Of a stretch of DNA of 28,609 nucleotides, positions 1,735-15,490 are shown piece after piece. The DNA is from a virus: the IMG/VR virus record IMGVR_UViG_3300025131_000304, positions 1 through 28,609 of that record, one strand, 5' to 3'. Each line of letters begins with the position of its first letter. Positions within the stretch are counted from its first letter, which is position 1. The translations under genes and the position numbers were made by a program. The notes under the pieces are model-generated. The model did no database searches, was not told the origin of the DNA, and was given only the letters and a program-made list of their open reading frames with translations.

Positions 1735-2608
1735 CATCAACTCCTGTTTCATTCCACTCGTGATACGATAGGAATATTGGGTGTGGTCGTTTGACCTGTT
1801 TACTTTCGGGTGATCCTAGATAAGTACAATACTTATCCCATGCGTCTATGTTGTAATACCATGGGAGAGTAATTGCTTTCTTATTATCTATTATAACACA
1901 ATTGAATACTTTGTCAAGAGAAAAAAATCGCGCTGACCAGCGCTCTTCTTTTGGTAGTTTCTCTCTGGGGAATAAACCGTCCTCTAAAACTTTTGAATTA
2001 TACATTCCAGTCCCCTCCCGAATAACGCGGCGCGCCTTGACAAAATCATCTTTGTCAAAGGTGAAGCCCAAGTATTCTCCATCTCGGATAGTCTTCCCCC
2101 CGTGTTCTAAAAGAAAACCTTGATCGCTTGAAATAATCTTTCGATGCTCTCGAAGAATGCTCGGATCATAAACCCCCCACGGGAAGGCTACATAATTTCT
2201 TTTTGGGATGACCCACTTGCTTAAGCGAGAACTAATCTGAAAAGCAGTCATGGCTCCATGGAGGATGCTCCAAGCGAGACAATCTCGCTTTCCAACGTCC
2301 TTTGCTTTGATGGGGACGTAATAGATCGGAATAGGCTTCCGAGATTCCGAAGGGAAAACATCTAGGCGGCGGCCGATCCACACGGGGTCTTGGACGTACT
2401 CGCCCAGCCTATGTCGGATAAGTGGCTTTGTATCGTCGTTACAGACGATCCAGATCGTTTCGCATCCAGCCCACGCACATTCATATACGGCTCGCTCAAT
2501 GGCGAGATAGTTGGGGGCGATGGGCATCATAGCATCGCCCCAGTCAAAGTTAAAGTCCAGGGGCTCTCCCGCTACCGGGACAATACCAGCTAAATGATAA
2601 CTACTCAT
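1724..2608 (-). CDS. Nucleotidyltransferase-like protein (GT-A fold, putative)
   Basis: A 294-aa protein whose first 70 residues resemble the start of sugar-phosphate nucleotidyltransferases: LAGIVPVAGEP at 6-16 (in place of the usual Gly-rich signature), then DAMMPIAPNYLAIERAV near 25-41, where such enzymes carry the Lys-Pro-Met and self-association segment, then a beta strand IWIVCNDD near 52-59. A GKRDCLAW segment near 106-113 and a later aromatic segment RNYVAFPWGVYDP follow. The catalytic Gly-x-Gly-x-Arg signature is not intact, so activity is uncertain. The start ATG overlaps the stop of the flavoprotein-like gene as ATGA, so the two are probably translationally coupled and act together. 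A consensus promoter (1890-1917) sits inside its 3' third. Remote-fold recognition only; it could also be a non-enzymatic derivative. Confidence 0.45.
   Translation of the reverse strand: MSSYHLAGIVPVAGEPLDFNFDWGDAMMPIAPNYLAIERAVYECAWAGCETIWIVCNDDTKPLIRHRLGEYVQDPVWIGRRLDVFPSESRKPIPIYYVPIKAKDVGKRDCLAWSILHGAMTAFQISSRLSKWVIPKRNYVAFPWGVYDPSILREHRKIISSDQGFLLEHGGKTIRDGEYLGFTFDKDDFVKARRVIREGTGMYNSKVLEDGLFPREKLPKEERWSARFFSLDKVFNCVIIDNKKAITLPWYYNIDAWDKYCTYLGSPESKQVKRPHPIFLSYHEWNETGVDDEP
1890..1917 (-). promoter_or_regulatory. Sigma-70-like promoter inside the nucleotidyltransferase-like gene
   Basis: On the minus strand TTGACA (1912-1917) and TATAAT (1890-1895) are both perfect consensus hexamers separated by 16 bases, with TG-T before the -10 (extended -10). 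It lies within coding sequence (around residues 232-240 of the 294-aa protein). Predicted start near 1883, giving a leader of about 150 bases before the 40-aa peptide gene and dnaE. Confidence 0.65.
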
Positions 2609-3477
2609 AAGCGTCGTGCCAATCTTGAACTATAACTTTCCAGCTCTTCAGGAAAGTTTTTAATTATTTCTTCGGCAGTGTCGTAACGGAACTCAAATCT
2701 TTCATCCGGCTCGTAATAGTTTTTAATGTCTCTCACTATTTCCCTCTGGGCTGATTCAATCTTGGGAGAGTAATACCGGTAGAGCTTCGGGTTATAAGTA
2801 TCTCGCCCATTCCTCGCGCCTCGGATGCCTGCATCTTTCATCATCTGGATTATTTTAAATCTTGCCATTGTGGGAGAATAATCGAAATTGTTTAATTGGT
2901 CGGGCTCCAAATAAGAAACGGCCACGAGGTCTTTACGGATCCTCTTTCCTTTGGCGCCGTCGAGCCTGTCTGAAGGATAAAAATATACCCGATTAATAAA
3001 ATGATCATCAGTGTCTATCGCATCGAGAGGGTGCTCCATCCCGCTCCGAACATTGAACCAATCAATAACTTTGGCCGGCAGCTCGATGCGGCTTTTTATA
3101 AAAGGGAGTCCGCTTACTTTTTCATCATCAAATATTATAAGTTTTTCAAACTCAAAGCGCCCCAGGCGAGATACGTGGGTGACCGCTTTTAGTATATTTT
3201 TGTTTATGGTGATACTCGCGGTTTTGTCTGCCATCGGCAACAGGCCTGATAAACCGAGCACCCGGATCAATCTTTCCCAAAGTTCTAGCTTCGAAGAGGT
3301 TGTCACTCCCAGAGAACGGAAATCATAATCTTCAGCGAAATCGTCAAAGCGGAAAGGAGGGTCAGCGCAGGCAAAGATACAAGGACAATCATTAAGATAC
3401 GCATAAAGGAGAGCATTTAATCCTCCCCCTATGACGATTTGGTCGTACTCGAAGACCTGTTGATGGATTTTTTCCAT
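2605..3477 (-). CDS. FAD/NAD-binding Rossmann-like protein (putative flavoprotein)
   Basis: A 290-aa protein with an N-terminal dinucleotide-binding strand-loop-helix: hydrophobic strand YDQIVIGGG then LNALLYAYL (residues 11-28), the Gly-rich turn used by FAD proteins such as UDP-galactopyranose mutase or protoporphyrinogen-oxidase relatives. The middle (about 120-190) has a strand pattern ending in VAVSYLEPDQLN, and a later segment reads KLYRYYSPKIESAQREI, which loosely recalls the substrate-binding half of those flavoproteins. At 290 aa it is shorter than a full amine-oxidase-type enzyme (usually about 400 or more) and has no clear C-terminal FAD motif. It overlaps the end of thyX by 49 bases, and its stop overlaps the next start as ATGA. 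Function unknown; the neighbour suggests sugar or nucleotide chemistry (inference). ATG at 3477 has only a weak ribosome site. Confidence 0.42.
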   Translation of the reverse strand: MEKIHQQVFEYDQIVIGGGLNALLYAYLNDCPCIFACADPPFRFDDFAEDYDFRSLGVTTSSKLELWERLIRVLGLSGLLPMADKTASITINKNILKAVTHVSRLGRFEFEKLIIFDDEKVSGLPFIKSRIELPAKVIDWFNVRSGMEHPLDAIDTDDHFINRVYFYPSDRLDGAKGKRIRKDLVAVSYLEPDQLNNFDYSPTMARFKIIQMMKDAGIRGARNGRDTYNPKLYRYYSPKIESAQREIVRDIKNYYEPDERFEFRYDTAEEIIKNFPEELESYSSRLARRL

Positions 3478-4591: not shown

Positions 4592-6832
4592 CTATTTATT
4601 TCCCTGCAAAGACGCGTAAAGCGACTCTACATATTCAGTTGGCAATTCACAAGACCCTCCGGCGCATGCCAAGTCTTGAGTAAATTCTACATTATTATTT
4701 TCTTCGGACATTGTAGTCCAGTCTATATCTTGATATTCTTTAGTAAGTTTTTCCCACAGTTTTAAATTATAAATATCTTTCAAACAGTAAGTCATCTTAC
4801 GGACGTCCCCCTCAAAATGACTCTCAGCGAATTTAATCGCAGCATTGGCCCAAGATCTCTTGAGGAGGTTGACTTCCAAAAGACATTCCCCAGTTCCCAA
4901 AACTGCATCCGATGCAGACCACAGATTTCCCTCAAAGGCTATCAGCGCCTGTTCAATAATACCACTAGCAAAAAAAGAGCCCGGACCATATTCCCTCAAG
5001 ATATCGTTGGGATAAGGGACCGCACAAAATGGAGCCTGCACATAATCCTTATCTCCCGAGTATGGTAACAGGCTAACGCCAGCGAAGTCTTTACGATTCT
5101 TATAAATGAAGTCGGCTACATCATCCCATTCATGCTCTTTAACGTGGATAGTGTTGGAAACATTATGACGCATCCCACTACGAACACAAAGATTAATGTT
5201 GGTTCCGTAACGAACCCAATTCTGTTGCGTCAACTTAACACTTTCTAGTAACTTCAGTGCATCAATTTGATTTTTAGTTTTGGCGCCGACTGGGACTTCA
5301 CATAGAAAAGTAATAACTTCAGTCACGCCGTTGGGGTCCCAAGCGCTGCGTTCTACTGCTCGTCTATTATATTTTTTAAAATGTTGCACTGGGTTTTCTT
5401 GCTTATTAGCTTGTACCCGGCGAAAATATCGTTTGGCGTGGTGAGGATGAATTCCGCTGGCTGTTCCCAAGACGCATGACGTAGATCCCGCAGGCTTGAC
5501 GCAAGTCGTGCGCGCTGCTTGGTTTACCCCAATAATGTCGGCAACGCGTTTATTCATCTCTTTAACAATTTTGGAACCATTGCGCTGAATGGTCGCGTCA
5601 AATAAAATCTCCGGGCTGTCCATCATCCCGGTGATCGAAACCCCCAACAATGCCTCGCGCTTGGTGATATTTTCCGTTACAGAACCAACATAAGGGAAAC
5701 TGGTATAGGCCGCTTGAAGGGTACCAATAATGGCGGCTACTCGGCATGCTCTATAAAAATTCTCTTCAGTGTCAGCCTTTTTGCCGTTGATCTCTGTCAA
5801 ATTACAAAACTGCCAGCCTGCATTCCCATGCTTATCGACCGGGTAAAGACTAATTTCAGCGCACGGATTAAAGCCACACTCAGTATCCTCTGCCCAAATA
5901 AATCCTGGCTCTCCATATTCACGCACCCACCCCATCAGTTGATTAAAATCTTGTTTAGAAGTCTCATCCCGAACCAACAACGCGCTATTATTAGAGCGGC
6001 CACGTTGGGGGTTTTCTAGTTGCCAGCGTCCGGTTTTTGCAGTAGCCATTTCTTCGTCACCGGGCGAAAAAAGCGCGATGGTAGCTGAACGGCGTACTCC
6101 TCCGGAAATAACTGCGTCAGCGGCATGCATGATTATATCATATACTTGGATTGGCCGAAGTTTCGCTTGTGCTGTCCCCTCCAGAGCGTCATCGAGAATT
6201 TGACGAATTAATTCCAGTGATCGTCGCAACCCATCTGGACCAGGCGCCTTGGATCCCGAACTGAGGGGGGAACCCGCTGGACGGACTAAGGAGTAATCAA
6301 AATTAACGCGCCGTCCACGATATTTTAGGGAACCGGGCGCGCCGTGAGTTCTTGCAAAATAGCTTTTTACTAAAACGCCGATGGCATCAGCCCAGCCCTC
6401 AATTGTATCCGGTACCACGAAGGTTTTTTCTCCCCTATGTAACTGTCTAATGGGGGGTAGCTGTGCAACATGATGCTCTTGGACACTAAAACCAACTCCG
6501 GAACCACACAATAAAAGATACATTAGCTCTTGAAAAGCTCTGGGGCGGTTGATGTGTCCAAAGGCGCAGTTATAAAGTCGTGCATTATGTTGGAAGATGG
6601 GCTCTCCACCAAATTGGAGGACGCGTTGGGATCCTAAAACTTCCTTGCGGCGCACAGCAATTTCGGCTTCGTCAATATATTTGTGTACTTCAGGAATATC
6701 TTTAAATTTCTCCCTATGCATATCGAAAACACGTTTAACCTGCTCGGCCCATGTTTCTCGCCTCTTCTCTTCGGGCAAATATTTAGCATATTTGGCTATT
6801 CTTGTATATTCTTGTAAAGTACTAATTGACAT
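4592..6832 (-). CDS. nrdJ: Class II (adenosylcobalamin-dependent) ribonucleoside-triphosphate reductase
   Basis: Reduces ribonucleotides to deoxynucleotides with a B12-derived radical. At 746 aa it matches the monomeric Lactobacillus leichmannii type (739 aa), not the longer dimeric form. Key features: the N-terminal redox Cys in YNCAFG (Cys89), QELMYLLLCGSGVGFS (101-116), the radical Cys and partner Glu in NPCAE (Cys324, Glu326), a third active-site Cys at Cys343, and a C-terminal swinging pair CAGGSC (Cys723 and Cys728) that is recharged by thioredoxin or a similar donor. No partner small subunit or activase is nearby, in line with class II. The gene overlaps the helicase stop by 11 bases and is followed 11 bases later by the GroES-like gene. 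No intron or intein is visible. Confidence 0.95.
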   Translation of the reverse strand: MSISTLQEYTRIAKYAKYLPEEKRRETWAEQVKRVFDMHREKFKDIPEVHKYIDEAEIAVRRKEVLGSQRVLQFGGEPIFQHNARLYNCAFGHINRPRAFQELMYLLLCGSGVGFSVQEHHVAQLPPIRQLHRGEKTFVVPDTIEGWADAIGVLVKSYFARTHGAPGSLKYRGRRVNFDYSLVRPAGSPLSSGSKAPGPDGLRRSLELIRQILDDALEGTAQAKLRPIQVYDIIMHAADAVISGGVRRSATIALFSPGDEEMATAKTGRWQLENPQRGRSNNSALLVRDETSKQDFNQLMGWVREYGEPGFIWAEDTECGFNPCAEISLYPVDKHGNAGWQFCNLTEINGKKADTEENFYRACRVAAIIGTLQAAYTSFPYVGSVTENITKREALLGVSITGMMDSPEILFDATIQRNGSKIVKEMNKRVADIIGVNQAARTTCVKPAGSTSCVLGTASGIHPHHAKRYFRRVQANKQENPVQHFKKYNRRAVERSAWDPNGVTEVITFLCEVPVGAKTKNQIDALKLLESVKLTQQNWVRYGTNINLCVRSGMRHNVSNTIHVKEHEWDDVADFIYKNRKDFAGVSLLPYSGDKDYVQAPFCAVPYPNDILREYGPGSFFASGIIEQALIAFEGNLWSASDAVLGTGECLLEVNLLKRSWANAAIKFAESHFEGDVRKMTYCLKDIYNLKLWEKLTKEYQDIDWTTMSEENNNVEFTQDLACAGGSCELPTEYVESLYASLQGNK

Positions 6833-8204
6833 CTTCTTTTTTCCCCTTCCTCTTCTTCTTAAAGTTTGCGTATTTTTCTTTTAATTTAACTTCTTGCCTC
6901 TTTTTAGCGCTCTCTTTAACTTCCCCAATTGTTTCCCCTGTAGAGGGCAATACTTTAATTTTGACATTGCGTGTATCCATAATAATAGGGAATATAATAC
7001 CATCCGGACCATTCCTGTTCTTTGCAACAAAAATACGGCCAGTATTTGTTAACTTATCCTCCACCGTTCTGGATATTGTGAAGATAAAATCTGATACGAA
7101 ACATTTATTGAAAGCCTCCGAAATTGATTCCATTGTAATGACTTCCGCATTTAATCCAGAACGATTAGTTTGAGATGCTGTCCAAACACAACATTTTTGT
7201 GTCTGCGCTAATGCTCGAAGCTGTTCATAAATAGTCTCTAGCTCATGCCTTTTCTCTCTTAATGTTGATTCGGGGCGTAATAAATCTCCGTAGTCCACGA
7301 TAATCATATCCGGCTTCAGTTGTCGATTTTTTAATTTTTCTACATGGTTTTTTATAGTTCTAACACTGGCTGTTTTCGTAGGGTACTCTTTAATAATTAA
7401 TGTGCCGCCCAAAGCTTCTACTGTTTCGTAGATTTCTTCTTTGAAGGTACTCAAGTCATTGAGGGGGATACCAGTGATGCAACTATCGAATCTAGAGCCA
7501 ACCACCGTATCAGCCAGTTCTAATGTGTAATAAACAACAGTTTTCCCAGCCAAAAGTGCTTGGGTACCAAGATGCACGAGGGCCATACTTTTTCCCGCTC
7601 CTGTTGGGGCAATTACAACTCCCAACTCTCCTTTCCCCAGGCCCTGCATACAGATTTCATCTATATATTGCCAACCGGTCGAGAGAGGATCCCGTACCTT
7701 GAGAATGAAGCGTTGTTCGAAATCTTTTAAATAATCATGACCGAAATCGGAATCTGCTCCCAGTTTTAGAGCCTCATTGATAACTCCTGCTATTTCATCA
7801 AACGAAGAATTTTGAAGAAGTTTTACTGACTTTAGCATGGCTTCTTTTAGCTTTTGTTTGCGACAAAAATCTAGCGTTGTCGTGGTAACATAATCTCGAT
7901 TCTCTATATCTGCTTTATGAATGCGAGCAAAAAAATCTCTTATTTGTTTTTGAACCGCCTCATTATGCTCTTGCAATTCAGTACGCAGAATAGATTTCAT
8001 CACCTTCTCAGAGGGGTGAACTGAAAATTTCTCTCGGTATTTGAGAATCAATTCCACAAATACCTGAAGATACCTTAATTCTAAAAAATTAATATCAAGT
8101 ACTTCTGAAATTTGATCCGCGAATGGTCGATCGAGTAAAATCAGGTGACATAAACTCTCTTGGAAGTCCTTCCCATAACGACTAAAATCTTCTCTTTGGG
8201 ACAC
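6822..8204 (-). CDS. dnaB: Replicative DNA helicase, DnaB/gp41-type
   Basis: Hexameric replication-fork helicase, 460 aa. The N-terminal part (1-165) is helical, as in DnaB. The RecA-like motor has Walker A APTGAGKS at 199-206, a strand VVYYTLEL near 223-230 with the DnaB H1a Glu, Walker B IIVDYGDLL with Asp304, and an ASQTNR segment corresponding to motif H3 (S-Q-x-x-R in DnaB). The C-terminal tail is strongly basic and Lys-rich. It starts at GTG (8204) with GGAGAG 5 bases upstream. Its own promoter (8223-8251) and a 23-base palindrome lie just before the start, so this appears to be the first gene of the helicase-nrdJ-groES-thyX transcript. No primase gene is in the window. Confidence 0.92.
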   Translation of the reverse strand: MSQREDFSRYGKDFQESLCHLILLDRPFADQISEVLDINFLELRYLQVFVELILKYREKFSVHPSEKVMKSILRTELQEHNEAVQKQIRDFFARIHKADIENRDYVTTTTLDFCRKQKLKEAMLKSVKLLQNSSFDEIAGVINEALKLGADSDFGHDYLKDFEQRFILKVRDPLSTGWQYIDEICMQGLGKGELGVVIAPTGAGKSMALVHLGTQALLAGKTVVYYTLELADTVVGSRFDSCITGIPLNDLSTFKEEIYETVEALGGTLIIKEYPTKTASVRTIKNHVEKLKNRQLKPDMIIVDYGDLLRPESTLREKRHELETIYEQLRALAQTQKCCVWTASQTNRSGLNAEVITMESISEAFNKCFVSDFIFTISRTVEDKLTNTGRIFVAKNRNGPDGIIFPIIMDTRNVKIKVLPSTGETIGEVKESAKKRQEVKLKEKYANFKKKRKGKKEDVN

Positions 8205-8236: not shown

Positions 8237-8251
8237 TATCATCAACGTCAA
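8223..8251 (-). promoter_or_regulatory. Helicase operon promoter
   Basis: Minus-strand TTGACG (8246-8251) and TATTAT (8223-8228) with 17-base spacing and TG-T before the -10. The -35 overlaps the stop codon of the exonuclease gene (8248-8250). Predicted leader is about 12 bases before the helicase GTG. Confidence 0.7.
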
Positions 8252-9204
8252 GCTGAAATTATGATTCTTTTAAATGTGCTGAATAAATCTGAGGTATTCC
8301 AATCTCCAAATCCATCCTCTATCATGCGTTTGATAGATCCCATTTTATTAAATTGGGGTTCAAAATTTTTAATCGTTTCATTAATATAAGTTTTCCCCAC
8401 AATCGAAATAGAGGGGGAATACAATTGCATAATCTTATAGTTGTCTTCTATAATCTGTTGGGAATCAATGATATTTTTAAAAACCTTAAGGCCGCTATTA
8501 TCATTTTCGCAACTTTCCATTAATTGCGCGATCGTTACATCCTTCTCTTCTTTAAAGAAGGGAAATCTTTTGGAAATAGTTTTTAATCCCACCCCCGAGA
8601 CGCCATCTAAATTATCTGATTTATCACCCACTACGGCTCGGGCCATAGCGAAGTTGACAGGATGAATACCAAATTCTTTTATGATGGTATTCATATTAAG
8701 AAATTTCTTTTGGATGGGGCGCCACAGAACGGTTTCATCATCGCAAAGCTGAAAAAAGTCTTTATCGCTAGAAACAATTAGTTTTTGCCAGCCCTTATAG
8801 AGGGGTGACTGTGAAACGTGTGCGATGATATCATCAGCCTCGACGCCATCTATCATTAGCTGAATGATGGGCATCTCATTTAAAAGCTCTATCAGACGCA
8901 TCTGTTGCCAAACCTTGTTTGCCATTTCTTGGTCTTCCGTAAGATTGCGAACATTACGATTTAAACGAATTGGCTTTCGCCCCTCTTTATAATTTTTATT
9001 TGTTATTCTGCGTCGTTGGGATCCCCCTACACCATCCCAAGCAATAATAATGGCGTCCGGTTTCATCTCCCGACAAAGCTTTTGCAATATTTTGATAAAA
9101 CCCTTATAGCCACCAATGGGATTCCCCGTTGGAGACAAACTTGGGTCTACAATATAAGCACGAAAATACGCATTGAGCGCATCTATAATCATTAAGCGTT
9201 TCAT
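8248..9204 (-). CDS. 5'-3' exonuclease / flap nuclease (FEN family, T4 RNase H-like)
   Basis: Removes RNA primers and flaps during lagging-strand synthesis. From ATG at 9204 the protein has 318 aa. The metal-binding acids of the PIN/FEN fold are all visible: IIDALNAYFRA (Asp8), IIIAWDG (Asp57), VEADD (Glu122, Asp124, Asp125), SSDKD (Asp147, Asp149) and GDKSDN (193-198), then a helix-hairpin DNA-binding segment GVSGVGLKT. GGAG lies 5 bases before the ATG; a GTG at 9222 gives six extra residues but has no ribosome site. It forms a split equivalent of the Pol I 5'-nuclease, complementing the family A polymerase at 12999-14186. A promoter (9243-9271) precedes it, and the helicase promoter overlaps its 3' end. 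Confidence 0.93.
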   Translation of the reverse strand: MKRLMIIDALNAYFRAYIVDPSLSPTGNPIGGYKGFIKILQKLCREMKPDAIIIAWDGVGGSQRRRITNKNYKEGRKPIRLNRNVRNLTEDQEMANKVWQQMRLIELLNEMPIIQLMIDGVEADDIIAHVSQSPLYKGWQKLIVSSDKDFFQLCDDETVLWRPIQKKFLNMNTIIKEFGIHPVNFAMARAVVGDKSDNLDGVSGVGLKTISKRFPFFKEEKDVTIAQLMESCENDNSGLKVFKNIIDSQQIIEDNYKIMQLYSPSISIVGKTYINETIKNFEPQFNKMGSIKRMIEDGFGDWNTSDLFSTFKRIIISA

Positions 9205-9227
9205 TCTAACTCCATAAGACACTAAAG

Positions 9228-9303: not shown

Positions 9304-10410
9304 CTATTCTTCATTATCATAAAAATCTTCCGCTTTGCCTTCGCGTTTATCGAACTTCATAATAACTTCTTCGTCCATAATCTGAAAAATTCTCTGACGA
9401 AATTTTTCTTCCTGCATCTTTTCTAGCCACTTCGATGCTTGGAACTTTTCAGACGAACCATCTTCAAAATTCAGTGTGTACCAGGCGCCGGATTGCTCAA
9501 TATTTTTAGAACCTTTTACGGCATCAAATAAAGATTCATCATCTTGGATGGCTACCTCGTCGCTGCCCCATAAAATTCTAAAATTACAGCGTCGACCTTG
9601 AGTCCCAAACCGTGATTTTTCCAACTTAACTTTAACCTCGGAACCAATTCGGAAGCCGTTCTCATCCAAGACGAAACTTGCTTTAGCTTTACGTCCCGTA
9701 AGCCAAATCCGCAACGAATAAGTATAATTCATTGCTTTGCCGCCGGGAGTGACATATGGGGTTGTCATAGCTTCGGCAGCAAATCTAGTAATGTTGGTCT
9801 TAAGTTGGTTCAAAACCAAGAAAGTACACTTATGTTGAGCAATAGATAAAGTTAGTTTGGCCATACCTTTAGCTAAAATTCTAGCCTTGACTGCCATAGA
9901 CGATTGGGGGTTAAAATCCCCCTCAACATCAGAAATCGCTGGCGTCTGTGCGAGCGAATCCCAGATAAAAAGAATCTGACCTGGGACACTGCCGAGCAAA
10001 GTCTCAATTGTTTCGAGAACAAACTCTACAGAAGTAGGCTGGATATATAGAATTTTATTCACATCGCAGCCTGCGCGCTCTAAAAAGGCCGGGTCGAGGG
10101 CTGATTCAGAATCAAAATATACTACATCAATCCCCATTTTTTGCGCATTGGCCGCAACTTGAGCAGCCATATAAGACTTACCAGTAGATTCGAGTCCAGC
10201 GATTTCCGTTACTTTGCCTACGGGGATCCCGGCTAGGTGTCCTCGGCAAATAATAGAATCAAGCCAGCGTGAGCCAGTGGGAATCCATTGAGTTACTTGC
10301 GTTGGATTATCTTCTTGTAAATTATGAGCAACTGTCATGCCAGCTTTCTTATTAACAAGCTTGCGCATGTCGGCTATTGACAATTTTCCAGCGGCCGGTT
10401 TCTTACGCAT
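9304..10410 (-). CDS. recA: RecA/UvsX-type recombinase
   Basis: Forms filaments on single-stranded DNA and drives strand exchange and recombination-dependent replication. Using ATG at 10410 gives 368 aa. Walker A is GLESTGKS (72-79), matching RecA GPESSGKT; VVYFDSES is the RecA strand containing the Asp-x-Glu segment; Walker B is ILFIWDSLA. NQLKTNI and YVTPGGKAMNYTYSLRIWL match the RecA L1/L2 region (FINQLR ... TTGGNALKFYASVRL). The C-terminal 120 residues diverge from cellular RecA and are acidic. The frame is open back to 10488, but those extra codons lie inside the FKBP gene; the 10410 start overlaps the FKBP stop by only 8 bases. It lies downstream of ssb and the FKBP gene, probably in one transcript from 11787-11815. 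Confidence 0.9.
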   Translation of the reverse strand: MRKKPAAGKLSIADMRKLVNKKAGMTVAHNLQEDNPTQVTQWIPTGSRWLDSIICRGHLAGIPVGKVTEIAGLESTGKSYMAAQVAANAQKMGIDVVYFDSESALDPAFLERAGCDVNKILYIQPTSVEFVLETIETLLGSVPGQILFIWDSLAQTPAISDVEGDFNPQSSMAVKARILAKGMAKLTLSIAQHKCTFLVLNQLKTNITRFAAEAMTTPYVTPGGKAMNYTYSLRIWLTGRKAKASFVLDENGFRIGSEVKVKLEKSRFGTQGRRCNFRILWGSDEVAIQDDESLFDAVKGSKNIEQSGAWYTLNFEDGSSEKFQASKWLEKMQEEKFRQRIFQIMDEEVIMKFDKREGKAEDFYDNEE

Positions 10411-10870
10411 TCTCGTTCGATTCGGTATCAGTAGCGGAATCTTCGATTTCCACCAATTCAATATCAAATTGAAGATCCTGACCAGCAAGGGGGTGATTTA
10501 AATCTACCGTAACACTGGTTTCGTTGAGTTGGCTGATTCGACCCATAAGGGACTTGCCTTCAGGAGTAGCCAACGGTACCGGTAATCCTTCCGTCAGGGC
10601 AATATGCTCTGGGAAAGCTGTGCGCTGAATTTCCGTATGAGCATCTTCGACAATATCTCCGTATGCTTCATCTTTGGTAAGGGTAATCGTCTTCTTTTCT
10701 CCCACCGACATGCCAACAATGGCATTGTCAAATCCTCGAATCATCTGACCTGCACCAACTTGGAAACCAATAGGCTCTCCGCGTCCATATGAATTGTCAA
10801 ACTCGGTTCCATCTTGGAGGCTACCGCGATAATGAACCTTTACCTGCGTGCCTTTTTGTGCTTTTAACAT
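10403..10870 (-). CDS. FKBP-type peptidyl-prolyl isomerase, SlyD-like
   Basis: Catalyses cis-trans isomerisation of Xaa-Pro bonds and acts as a folding helper. The FKBP core is clear: VKVHYRGSL with DGTEFDNS (residues 10-27), GQMIRGFDNAIVGMSVGEKK (41-60), DEAYG (67-71) and a C-terminal DLNHPLAGQDLQFDIELVEI, which is the SlyD/SlpA pattern. Residues of about 75-125 form the inserted-in-flap chaperone domain (EGLPVPL ... GKSLMGRISQL). It lacks the His/Cys-rich metal tail of E. coli SlyD and ends in an acidic tail instead. 155 aa total. A ribosome site AAAGGA precedes the ATG at 10870. It lies between ssb and recA, so it may help fold or assemble replication proteins (inference). An FKBP gene is unusual in a phage. 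Confidence 0.93.
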   Translation of the reverse strand: MLKAQKGTQVKVHYRGSLQDGTEFDNSYGRGEPIGFQVGAGQMIRGFDNAIVGMSVGEKKTITLTKDEAYGDIVEDAHTEIQRTAFPEHIALTEGLPVPLATPEGKSLMGRISQLNETSVTVDLNHPLAGQDLQFDIELVEIEDSATDTESNENA

Positions 10871-10938: not shown

Positions 10939-11706
10939 TTAGTTTCCTAGCAAATCTTGGAAAGCTGCATCTACACTAGTAGTGGTCGGTACACGGGGTG
11001 CCGAACGTTCGACTGTTTCCTCGTCATTTCCAAGAGTGTTCATGAACTCGTTAAAAATGTTTTCCACTTCCTCTTGAGGTTTGCGGGTGAAAAGATTTTC
11101 CATATCTGGAACAGTCTTGAGAAGTCGAGCGCACTCTTCTTCTCCGCCAACCGCATCATCACAAAGTGGCGATGTTCGGCGCCGTGGAGTCAGAGTGGTC
11201 TTCGGGAACTGTGCTCCTGGTGGCTTTCCATACCCCAGCGTCAGGTCGGTTCCGTCCTCACAGTCAGTGATATCACCATACTCAGGATTGAGAACCAAAT
11301 TCAAGAGAGCGGTATATGCTTCCTTGCCATAGCCCCAAACTCGAACACCTTCGGCTTCTTCGCCTCGAACGAGAACTGGTGAGAAGAAACGTTGCCGGGG
11401 AGACATATCCTTCGCCAATTTCAATGTATCGGTATCTTGCGAATCGTTGTATTCCTTCCAGAGTTGATCCTTGAAGTCGCAGATAGGACACTCGTCTCCA
11501 AAGTTCTTCTTGGGACAAAGAATACCAGAACGGTTTTCTCCACCAAGGTTATAATGGAAAAAATAATCCTTGAAGGGATCTCCATCGGCAGTCGGGACAA
11601 TGCGAATTACCTGCTGTCCGTCTTGGGGCTTCCAAAAGCCTCCTGCCTTATTTTTGTTTTTGACTGCATCCAGTCGTGCTTTGATTTTATCAATGTTTAG
11701 TGCCAT
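10939..11706 (-). CDS. gp32-like single-stranded DNA-binding protein
   Basis: Coats single-stranded DNA at the fork and during recombination. The 255-aa protein follows T4 gp32: a short basic N-terminus for cooperativity (ALNIDKIKARLDAVKNKNK), then the OB-fold core with a zinc site formed by His51, Cys64, Cys73 and Cys76 (ILCPKKNFGDECPIC), and an acidic C-terminal half ending in DAAFQDLLGN that would contact partner proteins. It starts at ATG 11706 with AAGGAG upstream. A strong promoter (11787-11815), an operator-like repeat and a leader hairpin lie before it, pointing to tight control; T4 gp32 is known to regulate its own mRNA. The 68-base gap after it (10871-10938) shows no terminator, so the FKBP and recA genes are probably co-transcribed. 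Confidence 0.87.
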   Translation of the reverse strand: MALNIDKIKARLDAVKNKNKAGGFWKPQDGQQVIRIVPTADGDPFKDYFFHYNLGGENRSGILCPKKNFGDECPICDFKDQLWKEYNDSQDTDTLKLAKDMSPRQRFFSPVLVRGEEAEGVRVWGYGKEAYTALLNLVLNPEYGDITDCEDGTDLTLGYGKPPGAQFPKTTLTPRRRTSPLCDDAVGGEEECARLLKTVPDMENLFTRKPQEEVENIFNEFMNTLGNDEETVERSAPRVPTTTSVDAAFQDLLGN

Positions 11707-11830: not shown

Positions 11831-12082
11831 TTATTCAAAATCTTTGATATTCGTGATATCAAATTCTTTGACTTCGCCAACTACTGTTTTTTGATTGAAG
11901 ATGCGAAAAGCTTGTTTATCCAAATCCCATACGAGTCGGTGACCTTCAACAAGTTGGCGTGGTTTACCGGTCCCCTTAAGTTGAGATGAAAGAAAATCTT
12001 CTGATAACTCTGAAATTTCTACAAATCTCATGGTTCTAAGATTTCCGTCTTTTTTCATATATGTTCCTAAATTAGCTTTCAA
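11831..12082 (-). CDS. Unknown 83-aa protein
   Basis: No family recognised. It starts at TTG (12082), supported by GGAG 5 bases upstream; the next in-frame ATG (residue 9) has no ribosome site. The sequence is a mix of charged residues and short beta-like stretches (RTMRFVEIS, GHRLVWDLD, FRIFNQKTVVGEVKEFDI), compatible with a small beta-barrel, and ends acidic (NIKDFE). It has a consensus promoter (12105-12133) about 25 bases upstream and is directly followed by the ssb promoter. High expression early and a role in replication or host take-over are plausible but only inferred from position. Confidence 0.75.
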   Translation of the reverse strand: MKANLGTYMKKDGNLRTMRFVEISELSEDFLSSQLKGTGKPRQLVEGHRLVWDLDKQAFRIFNQKTVVGEVKEFDITNIKDFE

Positions 12083-12166: not shown

Positions 12167-12991
12167 TCATGGTTGCACATAAGAGGCGTGCGCGATGCAA
12201 TAAGAAATATCTTTCTTATACTTGGTCTCGAATACTGCATACGAAATATTCGTAGTTTTTGATAATTTTGTTTTCATCTGATTAACAATCGATCGGAATA
12301 ATGTCCCATCGTTTTGCAACTTCTCTTTATTTACACCATAAATATAACACACATCACGGGGATTGTCAAGGGGAAAAAACATTTTTTCTTCATCATTTTC
12401 AGAATCAAAAATTCCAAACGTAGAGATTTTACACACATCACGGGGAAGTTCCATCTTCCCCACCACAGGTGACGCCTTCTGAAAAACGTGGATCATATGG
12501 AGCGTGGATGCAAGAGCTTCGTTTAATTTATCAAAATAAGACATAATTGGAACTTCCCCAATTATCTTTTCCAACTCGGGGTTAGAAACTAGGTATATTC
12601 TTTTAAAAACAGCAGAACGAGCATACTGCTGTAATACCCCCCGGACCAATCTTTCTCTTAGAACCTGCACCCCCGTCAGTAACTCGATTTCGGGCTGCAC
12701 ATAGAGAATTGTTACCTCCTTGTGGTTTAATTCTTCTAAAATTCGAAGAGAGGCTGTAGATATTGCACCTCCTCCCGCTAAGATAAAAAGAGTCTCGCCC
12801 TTTAAGCCTCCGAGAAAGTTTTCCAAAGAAGGAAGCTTTGTTTCATATTCTTCAGTTGTTTCATAAAATGGAAAATTATAACATCGTTCTCCCTCTAATC
12901 CTACATCTATTTTATAACACTTATATTGAGAATATTTCTCGAAACACTGAGTTATTTTACAACCGGCCTTTCCTAATCCTATTATATTCAT
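12167..12991 (-). CDS. FtsZ/tubulin-fold protein with degenerate GTP-binding and catalytic loops
   Basis: A 274-aa protein that follows the FtsZ layout. N-terminal IIGLGKAGCKI (3-13) matches the FtsZ T1 loop region (VIGVGGAGGNA). LFILAGGGAISTASL (68-82) takes the place of the Gly-rich T4 signature GGGTGTG, but is altered. ILYVQPE then LLTGVQVLRERLVRGVL matches the FtsZ VVTKPF region. VSNPELEKI (135-143) matches the T6 guanine-contact PNDRLLEI, keeping the Asn. The C-terminal ISYAVFETKYKKDISYCIAHAS matches the FtsZ strand pair around IFGSVI ... DEIVVTVIATG. The catalytic T7 motif NxDxxD is not seen where expected, so polymer-coupled GTP hydrolysis is doubtful. It starts at ATG 12991 with GAGAGG 3 bases upstream, 7 bases after the polymerase stop. 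Similarity was judged by eye. Confidence 0.6.
   Translation of the reverse strand: MNIIGLGKAGCKITQCFEKYSQYKCYKIDVGLEGERCYNFPFYETTEEYETKLPSLENFLGGLKGETLFILAGGGAISTASLRILEELNHKEVTILYVQPEIELLTGVQVLRERLVRGVLQQYARSAVFKRIYLVSNPELEKIIGEVPIMSYFDKLNEALASTLHMIHVFQKASPVVGKMELPRDVCKISTFGIFDSENDEEKMFFPLDNPRDVCYIYGVNKEKLQNDGTLFRSIVNQMKTKLSKTTNISYAVFETKYKKDISYCIAHASYVQP
12341..12369 (-). promoter_or_regulatory. Intragenic promoter in the FtsZ-like gene
   Basis: Minus-strand TTGACA (12364-12369), 17 bases, TATATT (12341-12346), with TG-T before the -10. It lies inside the C-terminal third of the FtsZ-like gene. It would add transcription into the 83-aa gene and ssb. Confidence 0.65.
12347..12446. repeat. 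Pair of 16-base direct repeats, 84 bases apart
   Basis: acacacatcacgggga occurs at 12347-12362 and again at 12431-12446, in the same frame, encoding PRDVC twice in the FtsZ-like protein. The left copy fills the spacer of the intragenic promoter at 12341-12369. Confidence 0.6.
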
Positions 12992-12998
12992 AATCCTC

Positions 12999-14186
12999 TC
13001 ACAATTTTAATCTCTTTAAATTTCCAAAATCCCGTCCAGCACGAATATTAACCACGAACTCGCCCAGCGCCGTATTCCCAAAAAGCTTAATTATATCCGG
13101 AAGAAGACGGCGCTCATCAAACGACAAATCCAGAATGATAGAGTCGTGAACCGGGAAGGCCACAAATGATTTTCGGTCTTCTAAATAATTATTCACCTTT
13201 ATCATTTGCCTTAAAACATTTTCGGCACAAGTGCTCTGAATGATATAATTTAATGCTGTTCTTTCTTCGGAGGGGATGGTCTTGTTCCAAAAGGTTCTCA
13301 CTTGGCCCTGAGTGAAGTACTTTTGTACCACAGAGCCCCGATCATAGGCACGAGAGGATAAGTAATCTTTACTGTCCGGATTATACAGCCATGCAAATAT
13401 TCTCTTTTTGGCTTCCTCTCGGGTGACAAGTCCTCGGTAAACATTTTTAATATTCCATTCGTGAATATCTTCTTGAGGCTGCATTTTCCCCTGTAAAGCT
13501 ATTAACGTTCTTAACTCGGCTGCATTAAAATCTAGTTCTATAAAAAAATCGTTGGTGGGTTCTACTACACATCTATATTTTCGATCCATCGTCAAAATTG
13601 GAAAGCTTCCTGGTTCTGTTGTTAACCTCCCAGTTTTGGTACCGTGGGGGTTAAACTTACAAGAAATTAATGTTTTATTTAAATTTTGAGCAAACCTACG
13701 AGCCCTCGGTTGATGCAGGTAGGGAAACAAATTTTTAGAATTTATATTTAATTTCCGGTACCGCATTTCTCCAAGCGTTTTTGCTAAAGCAATTTGATAG
13801 TCATAATCAAGAGGTTTTGAATGAGTATAGAAAACATGCTGACAGATCTGATTCTTCATATAACAATATTCTAGCAAAAATTTGGGAGGCACTAAATCAA
13901 AAAAACAGTTCTCTTCGAGAGAAATATCAGCGATCTCGAAAGACCGCATAAATGCTTTTAACTTGGAGCAAATTTTTTGCCACCGGGGTGCGAGATGATC
14001 TGGACACACCTCCTCCAAGCTTAGGCCACCACAATATATCTTGGCACACTGGATGTCTTCTTTTTTGAAAAAATCGGAATACGCCCATGTGTGAGTTAGG
14101 TCGGGGGGGATTTCATCATAAAACAATTCACCGTCAACATAAACTCCGACACATTCTGATTTGTCATCAAGGGTTTGGAAAAACAC
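12999..14186 (-). CDS. polA: Family A DNA polymerase, short form (palm/fingers only)
   Basis: DNA polymerase of the Pol I/T7 family, 395 aa, far shorter than a full Pol I (about 930) or T7 polymerase (704). Motif A is FFIELDFNAAELR with catalytic Asp219. The fingers O-helix keeps the R-x3-K-x3-F-x3-Y spacing (Arg256, Lys260, Phe264, Tyr268; REEAKKRIFAWLY). Motif C is FPVHDS (His347, Asp348). An upstream block GTKTGRLTTEPGSFPIL (182-198) matches the conserved T-x-x-GR-L-S region. The first 150 residues are poorly conserved, and no 3'-5' exonuclease motifs (DxE, Yx3D) are obvious. It starts at GTG 14186 with AGGAG upstream. It is followed by the FtsZ-like gene after 7 bases. The Phe at 264 rather than Tyr is typical of phages that exclude dideoxynucleotides poorly or well depending on this residue (family knowledge). 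Confidence 0.88.
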   Translation of the reverse strand: MFFQTLDDKSECVGVYVDGELFYDEIPPDLTHTWAYSDFFKKEDIQCAKIYCGGLSLEEVCPDHLAPRWQKICSKLKAFMRSFEIADISLEENCFFDLVPPKFLLEYCYMKNQICQHVFYTHSKPLDYDYQIALAKTLGEMRYRKLNINSKNLFPYLHQPRARRFAQNLNKTLISCKFNPHGTKTGRLTTEPGSFPILTMDRKYRCVVEPTNDFFIELDFNAAELRTLIALQGKMQPQEDIHEWNIKNVYRGLVTREEAKKRIFAWLYNPDSKDYLSSRAYDRGSVVQKYFTQGQVRTFWNKTIPSEERTALNYIIQSTCAENVLRQMIKVNNYLEDRKSFVAFPVHDSIILDLSFDERRLLPDIIKLFGNTALGEFVVNIRAGRDFGNLKRLKL

Positions 14187-14194
14187 TCTCTCTC

Positions 14195-15490
14195 CTAATA
14201 TCTTTTGTAGGTTGCCAACGATACCACTCGTGCATAAAATTCCTCAAAATTTTTAAACGGCCACCTGTCTTTATCCAAAGTGGCATAATATCTTTTGTAT
14301 ATATCATAGTTAAGAGATCCATTAAGAAATCTTAGATCATCAAACTTACTATTAATATAACGCAATCCCTGCACGTTGTCAAGTGTCTTTACAATATTTT
14401 TAGAATTATTAAAAATATGATCCAATCGGGCTTCCGAGAACTTGGTGCCTTTCTCAATATTCTTTAGGCGGATATAAAACTGAAGCCAGTGTAAATGTGA
14501 AAAATATTCTTTCACTTGATCCTGCCGTACTGGTTCTCTATACACTGTATAACGGTGGATACGGCCCTTCCGAGTTACTTGTTTCTGAATTCGTGGTCGT
14601 GCTGTCATCATACCATTGTACGTACTTACAGCGAGTCGCTGCAAATCCTCGATATCTTGGAGAAATATGGGGCTAGCATAGGAGCGGAAATATGTAATGG
14701 GCCCTACTGAGCCGCCTGTTCGGGCGCCCATAAATTTTTGCATAGCGGGGGAAGCTAAATTGGCAACAAGGCGCCATGGCGCATTCATATCAATATAGAA
14801 TCCATATTTAATGGCTACATTCTTATAAAACTCAAAAGCTGGACTCTGTATAAAATCTTTTATTTTCTCTGTGTCCGAGGCAGCGTCATAATCGCCTATC
14901 TCAAATGCTAAACCGCTCGTCAAAAGAGAGGAAAAACCTGCCAGGATATGAGAGGAGCGCGTGAAAGAGGTGCCAACAGCGCTCTCTTTTATTAATTGTA
15001 AAAAAACGGGTAAAAAATCTTTAAAAGATATGATGTCCGGATTATTAGAAAGTCCCCCAATGAGGTGGGCGCGAAAGGCGCGCTGGAAACCGGCATACCC
15101 CCGTCCAGGATCCATATATCCACGCACAGCTTTGAAGTTTGTGAGCGCTGGAGTTGGTACAGGAAAGCGGCCCTTCGCCTCGCAATATTCAATTTCTTTC
15201 TTCATCTCTAGATAAGCATCTGCCACAAAATCGACAACTGCCACACCTTCCTCTATCAGCACCAAAGAGTTGAGAGAGCACATCATAGGAGTCATATCAG
15301 GAGAGACCCGGCCATAAAGAATATCTTCCTGATTCCAGAAATCTCGCACGGGTGCTGGTAAAACAAACTCTTTAAGGTTTTTAGTATTATAAAAAGCATA
15401 TGCTCGGTACATTTCCCTCTTTAGAAATAAATCAAAGGTAGTCGAGTTATTCGATGCATCGAAAACGGAAGGTAAAAATGGATCAGCCAT
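14195..15490 (-). CDS. Unknown 431-aa protein at the tail/replication boundary
   Basis: No family recognised. It is rich in aromatic and charged residues, with no signal peptide or membrane span. Notable stretches are ARTGGSVGPITYFRSYASP (about 257-275) and a basic segment RPRIQKQVTRKGRIHRYTVYR near 300-320, and the C-terminus is rich in Tyr, Phe, Arg and Lys. The ATG at 15490 overlaps the stop of the 1346-aa gene as TAATG, so it is probably translated with the tail genes and is likely a virion or tail-assembly protein (inference from context). A consensus promoter (14354-14382) lies inside its 3' end and would feed the polymerase and FtsZ-like genes. The next gene begins 8 bases later. Confidence 0.8.
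   Translation of the reverse strand: MADPFLPSVFDASNNSTTFDLFLKREMYRAYAFYNTKNLKEFVLPAPVRDFWNQEDILYGRVSPDMTPMMCSLNSLVLIEEGVAVVDFVADAYLEMKKEIEYCEAKGRFPVPTPALTNFKAVRGYMDPGRGYAGFQRAFRAHLIGGLSNNPDIISFKDFLPVFLQLIKESAVGTSFTRSSHILAGFSSLLTSGLAFEIGDYDAASDTEKIKDFIQSPAFEFYKNVAIKYGFYIDMNAPWRLVANLASPAMQKFMGARTGGSVGPITYFRSYASPIFLQDIEDLQRLAVSTYNGMMTARPRIQKQVTRKGRIHRYTVYREPVRQDQVKEYFSHLHWLQFYIRLKNIEKGTKFSEARLDHIFNNSKNIVKTLDNVQGLRYINSKFDDLRFLNGSLNYDIYKRYYATLDKDRWPFKNFEEFYARVVSLATYKRY
14354..14382 (-). promoter_or_regulatory. Intragenic promoter before the family A polymerase
   Basis: Minus-strand TTGACA (14377-14382), 17 bases, TATATT (14354-14359). It lacks the TG extension seen at most other sites. It sits about 170 bases upstream of the polymerase start, inside the 431-aa gene, and marks the border between tail and replication genes. 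Confidence 0.68.

Follow-up and report, generated by a model that had tools for sequence, protein, structure and literature searches.

The window analyzed here is a virus record of 28,609 bases that represents a fragment of a T4-like tailed phage. Among its replication genes lies a gene for a 274-aa protein with a predicted tubulin/FtsZ fold, encoded on the minus strand, a point absent from the earlier note on this DNA. This protein and its homologues are designated family A, and a second, canonical FtsZ-like phage protein is designated B. The family A gene and its neighbors in the window are listed below.

14195–15490: 431-aa gene immediately preceding polA, kept across the family A loci
12999–14186, minus strand: polA, short family-A DNA polymerase of 395 aa (PF00476, E = 1.8e-13; phrog_17)
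12167–12991, minus strand: family A protein, 274 aa, predicted tubulin/FtsZ fold (ORF, AlphaFold2, Foldseek and position after polA)
11831–12082, minus strand: 83-aa protein with a weak WYL_2/Sm-like match, present in only part of the loci
10939–11706, minus strand: ssb, gp32-like single-strand-DNA-binding protein (phrog_1192, E = 1.3e-26)
10403–10870: FKBP-type peptidyl-prolyl isomerase, between ssb and uvsX
9304–10488, minus strand: UvsX/RecA-like recombinase (phrog_97, E = 3.2e-58)
8248–9222, minus strand: 5'-3' exonuclease (phrog_107, E = 8.7e-27)
6822–8204, minus strand: DnaB-like replicative helicase (phrog_19, E = 6.6e-76)

Along the direction of transcription, the 431-aa gene is followed by polA, the family A gene, the 83-aa gene, ssb and the FKBP isomerase gene, and then by the genes for the UvsX-like recombinase, the 5'-3' exonuclease, the DnaB-like helicase and a ribonucleotide reductase. 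Genes for the tail sheath, tail tube and baseplate lie upstream of the replication genes. The stop codon of polA is located 7 nt upstream of the family A gene. The earlier note had placed the protein between a polymerase and ssb; the replication module is as described there, but the 83-aa gene separates ssb from the family A gene. The 431-aa gene matches nothing in Pfam or NCBIfam and nothing with confidence in PHROGs, and the short polA has no match among annotated phages. The FKBP-type isomerase gene occupies the same place in only some relatives (e.g. L088, L101, L129, L132 and L160). A 290-aa protein encoded downstream of thyX (2605–3477) begins with a dinucleotide-binding-like motif (IVIGGGLNALLYAYL) and has no Pfam match. 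In a comparison with a 78%-identical relative (L002), the family A gene exhibits a dN of 0.138 and a dS of 1.29 (dN/dS of about 0.11), and the 274-aa ORF is a real gene under purifying selection.

Single-sequence searches with the 274-aa protein returned nothing useful from Pfam, PHROGs, the PDB, phages (by tblastn) or IMG/VR peptide patterns, and no PHROG or Pfam family gave a confident match to this query. The family was reached instead via the neighboring polymerase. A polA search yielded 80 IMG/VR loci, of which 78 carry a family A homologue immediately behind polA and two terminate at polA or shortly past it. A 50-member alignment was then used for an IMG/VR pattern search independent of polA, which produced at least 599 matches, with at least 596 confirmed among the matches listed. 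A total of 159 loci were examined, corresponding to about 154 distinct ones since five contigs were counted twice. The replication genes are all on the same strand in 159 of 159 loci, and the order polA–family A–ssb is observed in all 136 loci that have both flanks. The family A start overlaps the polA stop or lies at most 60 nt from it in 95 of 145 loci. The slot between polA and ssb, regarded as unusual in the earlier note, is the constant place of family A in every locus examined. Each of 12 large contigs, the longest of 187 kb, contains one copy of the gene. Pairwise distances of family A correlate with those of polA, UvsX and ssb (Spearman 0.78, 0.78 and 0.73, respectively) as well as polA correlates with UvsX (0.78), which indicates that family A is inherited with the replication module. 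Within a large uncultured lineage of far-T4-like phages, family A is a core gene present in one copy.

The helicase and sheath of the window are only 34–42% identical to those of the nearest annotated phages (Microcystis phage Mel-JY01, Flavobacterium immuto phages, Rhodothermus phage RM378 and an uncultured 484-kb phage), which places the window in an uncultured lineage far from classical T4. Judging by IMG sample numbers, this lineage is apparently mostly marine. The cultured far-T4 phages RM378, Mel-JY01 and immuto, as well as LR756508, gave no family A profile match in a search run without a positive control and were dropped as candidate carriers; family A would therefore not be common to all replisomes of this type. 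Only one match was obtained among 84,980 species genomes, in a phage scaffold within a WOR-3 MAG. The corresponding piece of the phage lineage (CP070664.1, 2243228–2260037, 'WOR-3 bacterium bin77 chromosome', L164) is found amid otherwise cellular genes. A WOR-3 prophage was rejected, as the piece sits between runs of N inside the MAG, and it looks like a scaffolding artefact.

An AlphaFold2 model of the 274-aa protein built from the 50-sequence alignment (pLDDT 94.1, pTM 0.92) adopts a two-domain tubulin/FtsZ fold with the central helix H7 at residues 149–171. In a Foldseek comparison with the PDB, the best match is TubZ (4ei7, E = 4.5e-12), followed by FtsZ (4m8i, E = 5.4e-12), and the best 50 matches are all TubZ, FtsZ or CetZ (E = 4.5e-12 to 5e-10, TMq 0.66–0.72). 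The structure prediction that the earlier note had suggested as a check thus returned the two-domain tubulin fold, with TubZ and FtsZ as the best matches and no other Rossmann family among the top 50. Among viral models in BFVD, the best match is a phage 'FtsZ' (A0A6J5RW92, TMq 0.80), and PhuZ of phage Noxifer is a weaker one (TMq 0.55). By its modeled fold, the 274-aa protein belongs to the tubulin/FtsZ superfamily.

The sequence relationship is more distant. FtsZ is the top PDB profile match at only E = 0.097, and its identity to the family is about 10%. PF00091 and TIGR00065 are each seen in 3 of 50 members, with best E values of 0.0058 and 0.022 that fall short of the curated cut-offs. A profile of 136 homologues aligns by hhalign over residues 2–165 to E. 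coli FtsZ residues 14–194 with an E value of 0.0016, whereas null comparisons (the reversed profile and unrelated families) gave only short matches at 0.036–0.71; the order of the motifs is therefore not due to chance. The fold model and the existence of the family likewise rule out a chance resemblance to FtsZ. The FtsZ-like segments that had been read from the single sequence are indeed present and in order, namely IIGLGKAG (T1, residues 3–10), LAGGGAISTAS (T4, 71–81), ILYVQPE (VVTKP-like strand, 95–101), SNPELEKI (136–143) and the C-terminal SYAVFETKYKKDISYCIAHA. Against phiKZ PhuZ, the profile match covers 26 residues of T1 only (E = 0.0022), and full-length similarity is absent. The earlier assignment to the phage tubulins PhuZ and TubZ therefore holds for the fold and fails for membership of either family; by the tests made, family A is none of FtsZ, TubZ and PhuZ.

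Weak matches to families that bind NAD(P) arise from the Rossmann-like T1 loop (TrkA_N in 15 members and Sacchrp_dh_NADP in 10). Together with weak matches of some members to GMC oxidoreductases in Pfam and NCBIfam, these would suit a Rossmann-type dinucleotide-binding protein unrelated to tubulin whose T1 merely resembles GxGxxG. Such an identity is very improbable given the tubulin two-domain fold (TM of about 0.7 over the protein), the placement of all 50 listed PDB matches in the superfamily, and the Asn pair in T6 and H7.

The family A elements that correspond to the nucleotide-binding and catalytic parts of FtsZ were mapped as follows. Conservation was counted in the columns of 136 distinct sequences, and FtsZ numbering follows the printed alignment.

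12956–12979, minus strand: T1 loop, residues 5–12 GLGKAGCK (FtsZ GVGGGGGN), ungapped in hhalign to FtsZ
12842–12856, minus strand: T3/H3 region, residues 46–50 TEEYE, no GAGxN
12752–12778, minus strand: T4 loop, residues 72–80 AGGGAISTA (family GSGKIS; FtsZ GGGTGTG)
12689–12703, minus strand: S5/T5, residues 97–101 YVQPE (family YIxPD; FtsZ VVTKPF)
12611–12631, minus strand: signature QEYARSG, residues 121–127, end of helix H5
12572–12586, minus strand: T6, residues 136–140 SNPEL, with Asn137 aligned to E. coli FtsZ N165 (hhalign)
12521–12538, minus strand: H7, residues 152–157 YFDKLN, with residue 153 and Asn157 aligned to FtsZ F182 and N186
12428–12478, minus strand: H7-S7 link, residues 172–188, expected place of T7 and H8
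C-terminal strand pair SYAVFETKYKKDISYCIAHA, strands at residues 248–256 and 262–269 in the model

In T1, G5 (135/136) and G7 (136/136) are essentially invariant, and A9 and G10 are each found in 128 of the 136 sequences. The T5 residues Y97 (134/136) and P100 (130/136) are similarly conserved, with an acid at position 101 in 93%. In FtsZ and tubulin, the guanine base is contacted by the T6 Asn together with an aromatic residue and an Asn of H7. The equivalent family A residues N137 and N157 are each kept in 133 of 136 sequences, and position 153 is Y, F or H in 133 of 136. Guanine-base pocket residues (N137, an aromatic residue or His at 153, and N157) thus appear to be retained family-wide. 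The most conserved family-specific motif is QEYARSG at the end of H5 (Q121 and R125, 136/136; S126, 135/136). An equivalence of Q121 and R125 to the E-x3-R of FtsZ H5 was considered and dropped, as the two motifs lie at distances from the T6 Asn that differ by about 11 residues.

The remaining active-site elements are missing. The GAGxN string of T3 is absent in 133 sequences and present in only three; the region instead displays a near-invariant E47 (133/136) and Y49 (129/136) and forms helices at residues 46–51 and 57–60 in the model. A GGGTGTG-type T4 motif is found in none of the 136 sequences, which read GSGKIS or similar, so that the altered T4 loop first noticed in one protein is a property of the whole family. 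The same applies to the missing T7 acid: NxDxxD occurs in 0 of 136 sequences, the H7-S7 link contains no helix H8 in the model and no invariant acid, and the highest acid frequency at any position of the T7 region is 68%. The model ends after the strand at residues 262–269 without a C-terminal helix H11 or tail. The chains stop 0–17 residues (median 4) past Q273, and both a C-terminal tail and the FtsZ C-terminal linker with its FtsA/ZipA-binding peptide are absent. The T3, T4, H8 and T7 features of FtsZ are lost family-wide.

The fold, family, operon position, purifying selection and coinheritance with replication genes, all established by computation, are tentatively best explained if family A is a guanine-nucleotide-bound static structural or regulatory part of the phage replication machinery rather than a dynamic GTP-driven filament (probability of roughly 0.48). 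By residue mapping, family A would bind a guanine nucleotide through the base pocket of N137, the aromatic residue 153 and N157, with T1 and T5 kept, a prediction drawn from an alignment in which identity is about 10%. Because T1 draws weak NAD(P)-family matches, the ligand could differ from a guanine nucleotide. In the tubulin mechanism, the T7 acid of the neighboring subunit acts on the nucleotide. With its T3 and T4 phosphate loops remodeled and its T7 acid and helix H8 lost family-wide, family A would be unable to hydrolyze GTP by this tubulin/FtsZ mechanism. The earlier suggestion of nucleotide binding without canonical hydrolysis gains support from the same combination of kept base contacts and lost T3, T4 and T7 elements and seems likely. 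The protein would be made together with the polymerase, ssb, recombinase and helicase, and it would persist, with nucleotide bound, as a part of the machinery where the phage DNA is replicated. Its fixed place between polymerase and ssb makes a structural or regulatory role at that site most likely; operon position alone is no proof of such a role, as unrelated genes also ride in phage operons.

The joint loss of T7, H8 and the T3 and T4 loops would remove much of the protofilament contact, which makes a GTP-driven dynamic filament unlikely. Most characterized tubulin-superfamily proteins polymerize, which counts against a non-filament view. The main rival proposes that family A forms hydrolysis-free, nucleotide-bound filaments through a non-canonical interface and that these organize, center or segregate phage DNA in the manner of PhuZ and TubZ. 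The fold is shared with both proteins, DNA-organizing phage tubulins are known and the replication-gene neighborhood suits DNA organization; phiKZ TubZ likewise contains a helical T3 insertion, which rearranges on polymerization (PMC3678025). However, family A lacks T3 and the lower longitudinal interface (T7 and H8). It also lacks the C-terminal tail, which in TubZ and PhuZ accompanies helix H11 (PMC3678025). Moreover, a non-exhaustive look identified no TubR-like gene beside family A, whose neighbors are polA, the 83-aa protein gene and ssb. Such filaments are possible but unlikely.

The earlier note had also raised the idea that the protein is a decoy that caps host FtsZ and stops division; binding would then be through the nucleotide face of the decoy. 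An FtsZ fold with an intact predicted base pocket and no T7 would be suitable for this purpose, and many phages block FtsZ with unrelated proteins, e.g. lambda Kil (PMC3961180). Yet the identity to FtsZ is only about 10%, the T3 GAGxN and T4 GGGTGTG motifs of the top-face interface are not mimicked, and conservation is strongest at family-specific motifs. The gene is also a fixed replication-operon member across a very diverse phage group, and as a coinherited part of the polA–ssb–UvsX operon it does not resemble a variable host-takeover gene. The decoy has no support beyond the fold and is improbable.

Some phages of the lineage encode a second tubulin. B is a 364-aa canonical FtsZ-like protein first placed on a family A-bearing contig of 165,872 bp (G008), and it contains T1 (GVGGGGGK), T4 (GGGGGTGS) and T7 (FDSKDL).

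L176:3387–4481 (= G008:103386–104480): B gene
L179:6001–7092: B gene

B has 107 confirmed IMG/VR relatives on contigs of up to 281 kb, and its model adopts a tubulin fold close to that of A0A6J5RW92. It adjoins a tandem pair of genes (458 and 469 aa) with the appearance of baseplate-hub genes; the one tested gave no family match. In phages with B only, a distant short polA is followed by other genes. Such distant polA versions (about 395–412 aa; L263–L271) were observed in large phages of up to 281 kb that contain B and lack A. Several 'phage' records (named Listeria, Enterococcus or Acinetobacter phage, or Bacteriophage sp.) contain an ordinary bacterial ftsZ, once beside lpxC, and thus apparently reflect bacterial contamination.

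The co-occurrence of A and canonical B in seven contigs raises a two-tubulin system in which family A pairs with a catalytic partner that supplies T7, namely B where present and host FtsZ elsewhere. Against this system, B is missing by profile search from 21 of 22 large A-bearing contigs and A from 14 of 20 contigs with B (contigs may be incomplete in both cases), the A and B genes are far apart in different modules, and the T3 and T4 residues that such an interface would call for are absent from A. This arrangement has a low probability as an account of family A. An A–B pair as a general rule was rejected on the 21 of 22 contigs and on the different genes that follow the distant polA in B-only phages; a partnership is possible in some phages and not the rule. 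A more specific version of the replication-machinery reading, which is doubtful, is that an ex-cytoskeletal GTPase was turned lineage-wide into a guanine-nucleotide-bound replisome accessory of the short family-A polymerase and ssb, in some members alongside a second, catalytic phage tubulin.

The analysis adds a large, so far unannotated protein family (about 600 or more candidate members in IMG/VR) whose function can be tested directly. It also uncovers phages that encode two distinct proteins of the tubulin fold. The interest lies in a core phage gene that keeps the fold and a predicted base pocket and has dropped the catalytic and longitudinal-contact parts. Characterized tubulin-superfamily proteins are mostly filament-forming GTPases. 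If the static, nucleotide-bound role is true, the tubulin fold has been reused beyond dynamic filaments, or its filaments need no hydrolysis. A tubulin fold in phages is already known from PhuZ and TubZ. Family A appears to be undescribed, as no earlier description was found in the open literature searched.

Family A resembles FtsZ in its fold, in the order of T1, T4, T5, T6 and H7, and in the base-contacting Asn residues of T6 and H7. It differs in the absence of the GAGxN T3, the GGGTGTG T4, H8, the NxDxxD T7 and the C-terminal peptide, at about 10% identity, and FtsZ is a bacterial cell-division protein, whereas family A is a phage replication-operon gene. FtsZl1 and FtsZl2 are likewise divergent families of the FtsZ superfamily (Makarova and Koonin 2010, PMC2875224). 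They are cellular and keep the T4 signature GGGTG(S/T)G, by which one of the two was found (PMC2875224), whereas family A is viral and has lost it, thereby failing the usual signature by which such families were found (PMC2875224). TubZ, a plasmid and phage partition tubulin, shares the fold and provides the best PDB match (4ei7), but it is about 380 aa or more in length compared with 274, and family A has neither the T7 acid nor the C-terminal H11 and tail, with no adjacent TubR identified. PhuZ, the spindle tubulin of phiKZ-like jumbo phages, is also a phage-encoded tubulin fold with a helical T3 region. In contrast to family A, it carries a catalytic aspartate in T7 and ends in a C-terminal tail (PMC3678025); it belongs to a different phage group, aligns by profile only in T1 and matches in BFVD at a TMq of 0.55. 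The best viral structural neighbor is A0A6J5RW92 ('FtsZ Cell division GTPase', uncultured Caudovirales phage; TMq 0.80), which differs from family A in its length of 452 aa and is closer to B (E = 8e-22) than to A (1e-11).
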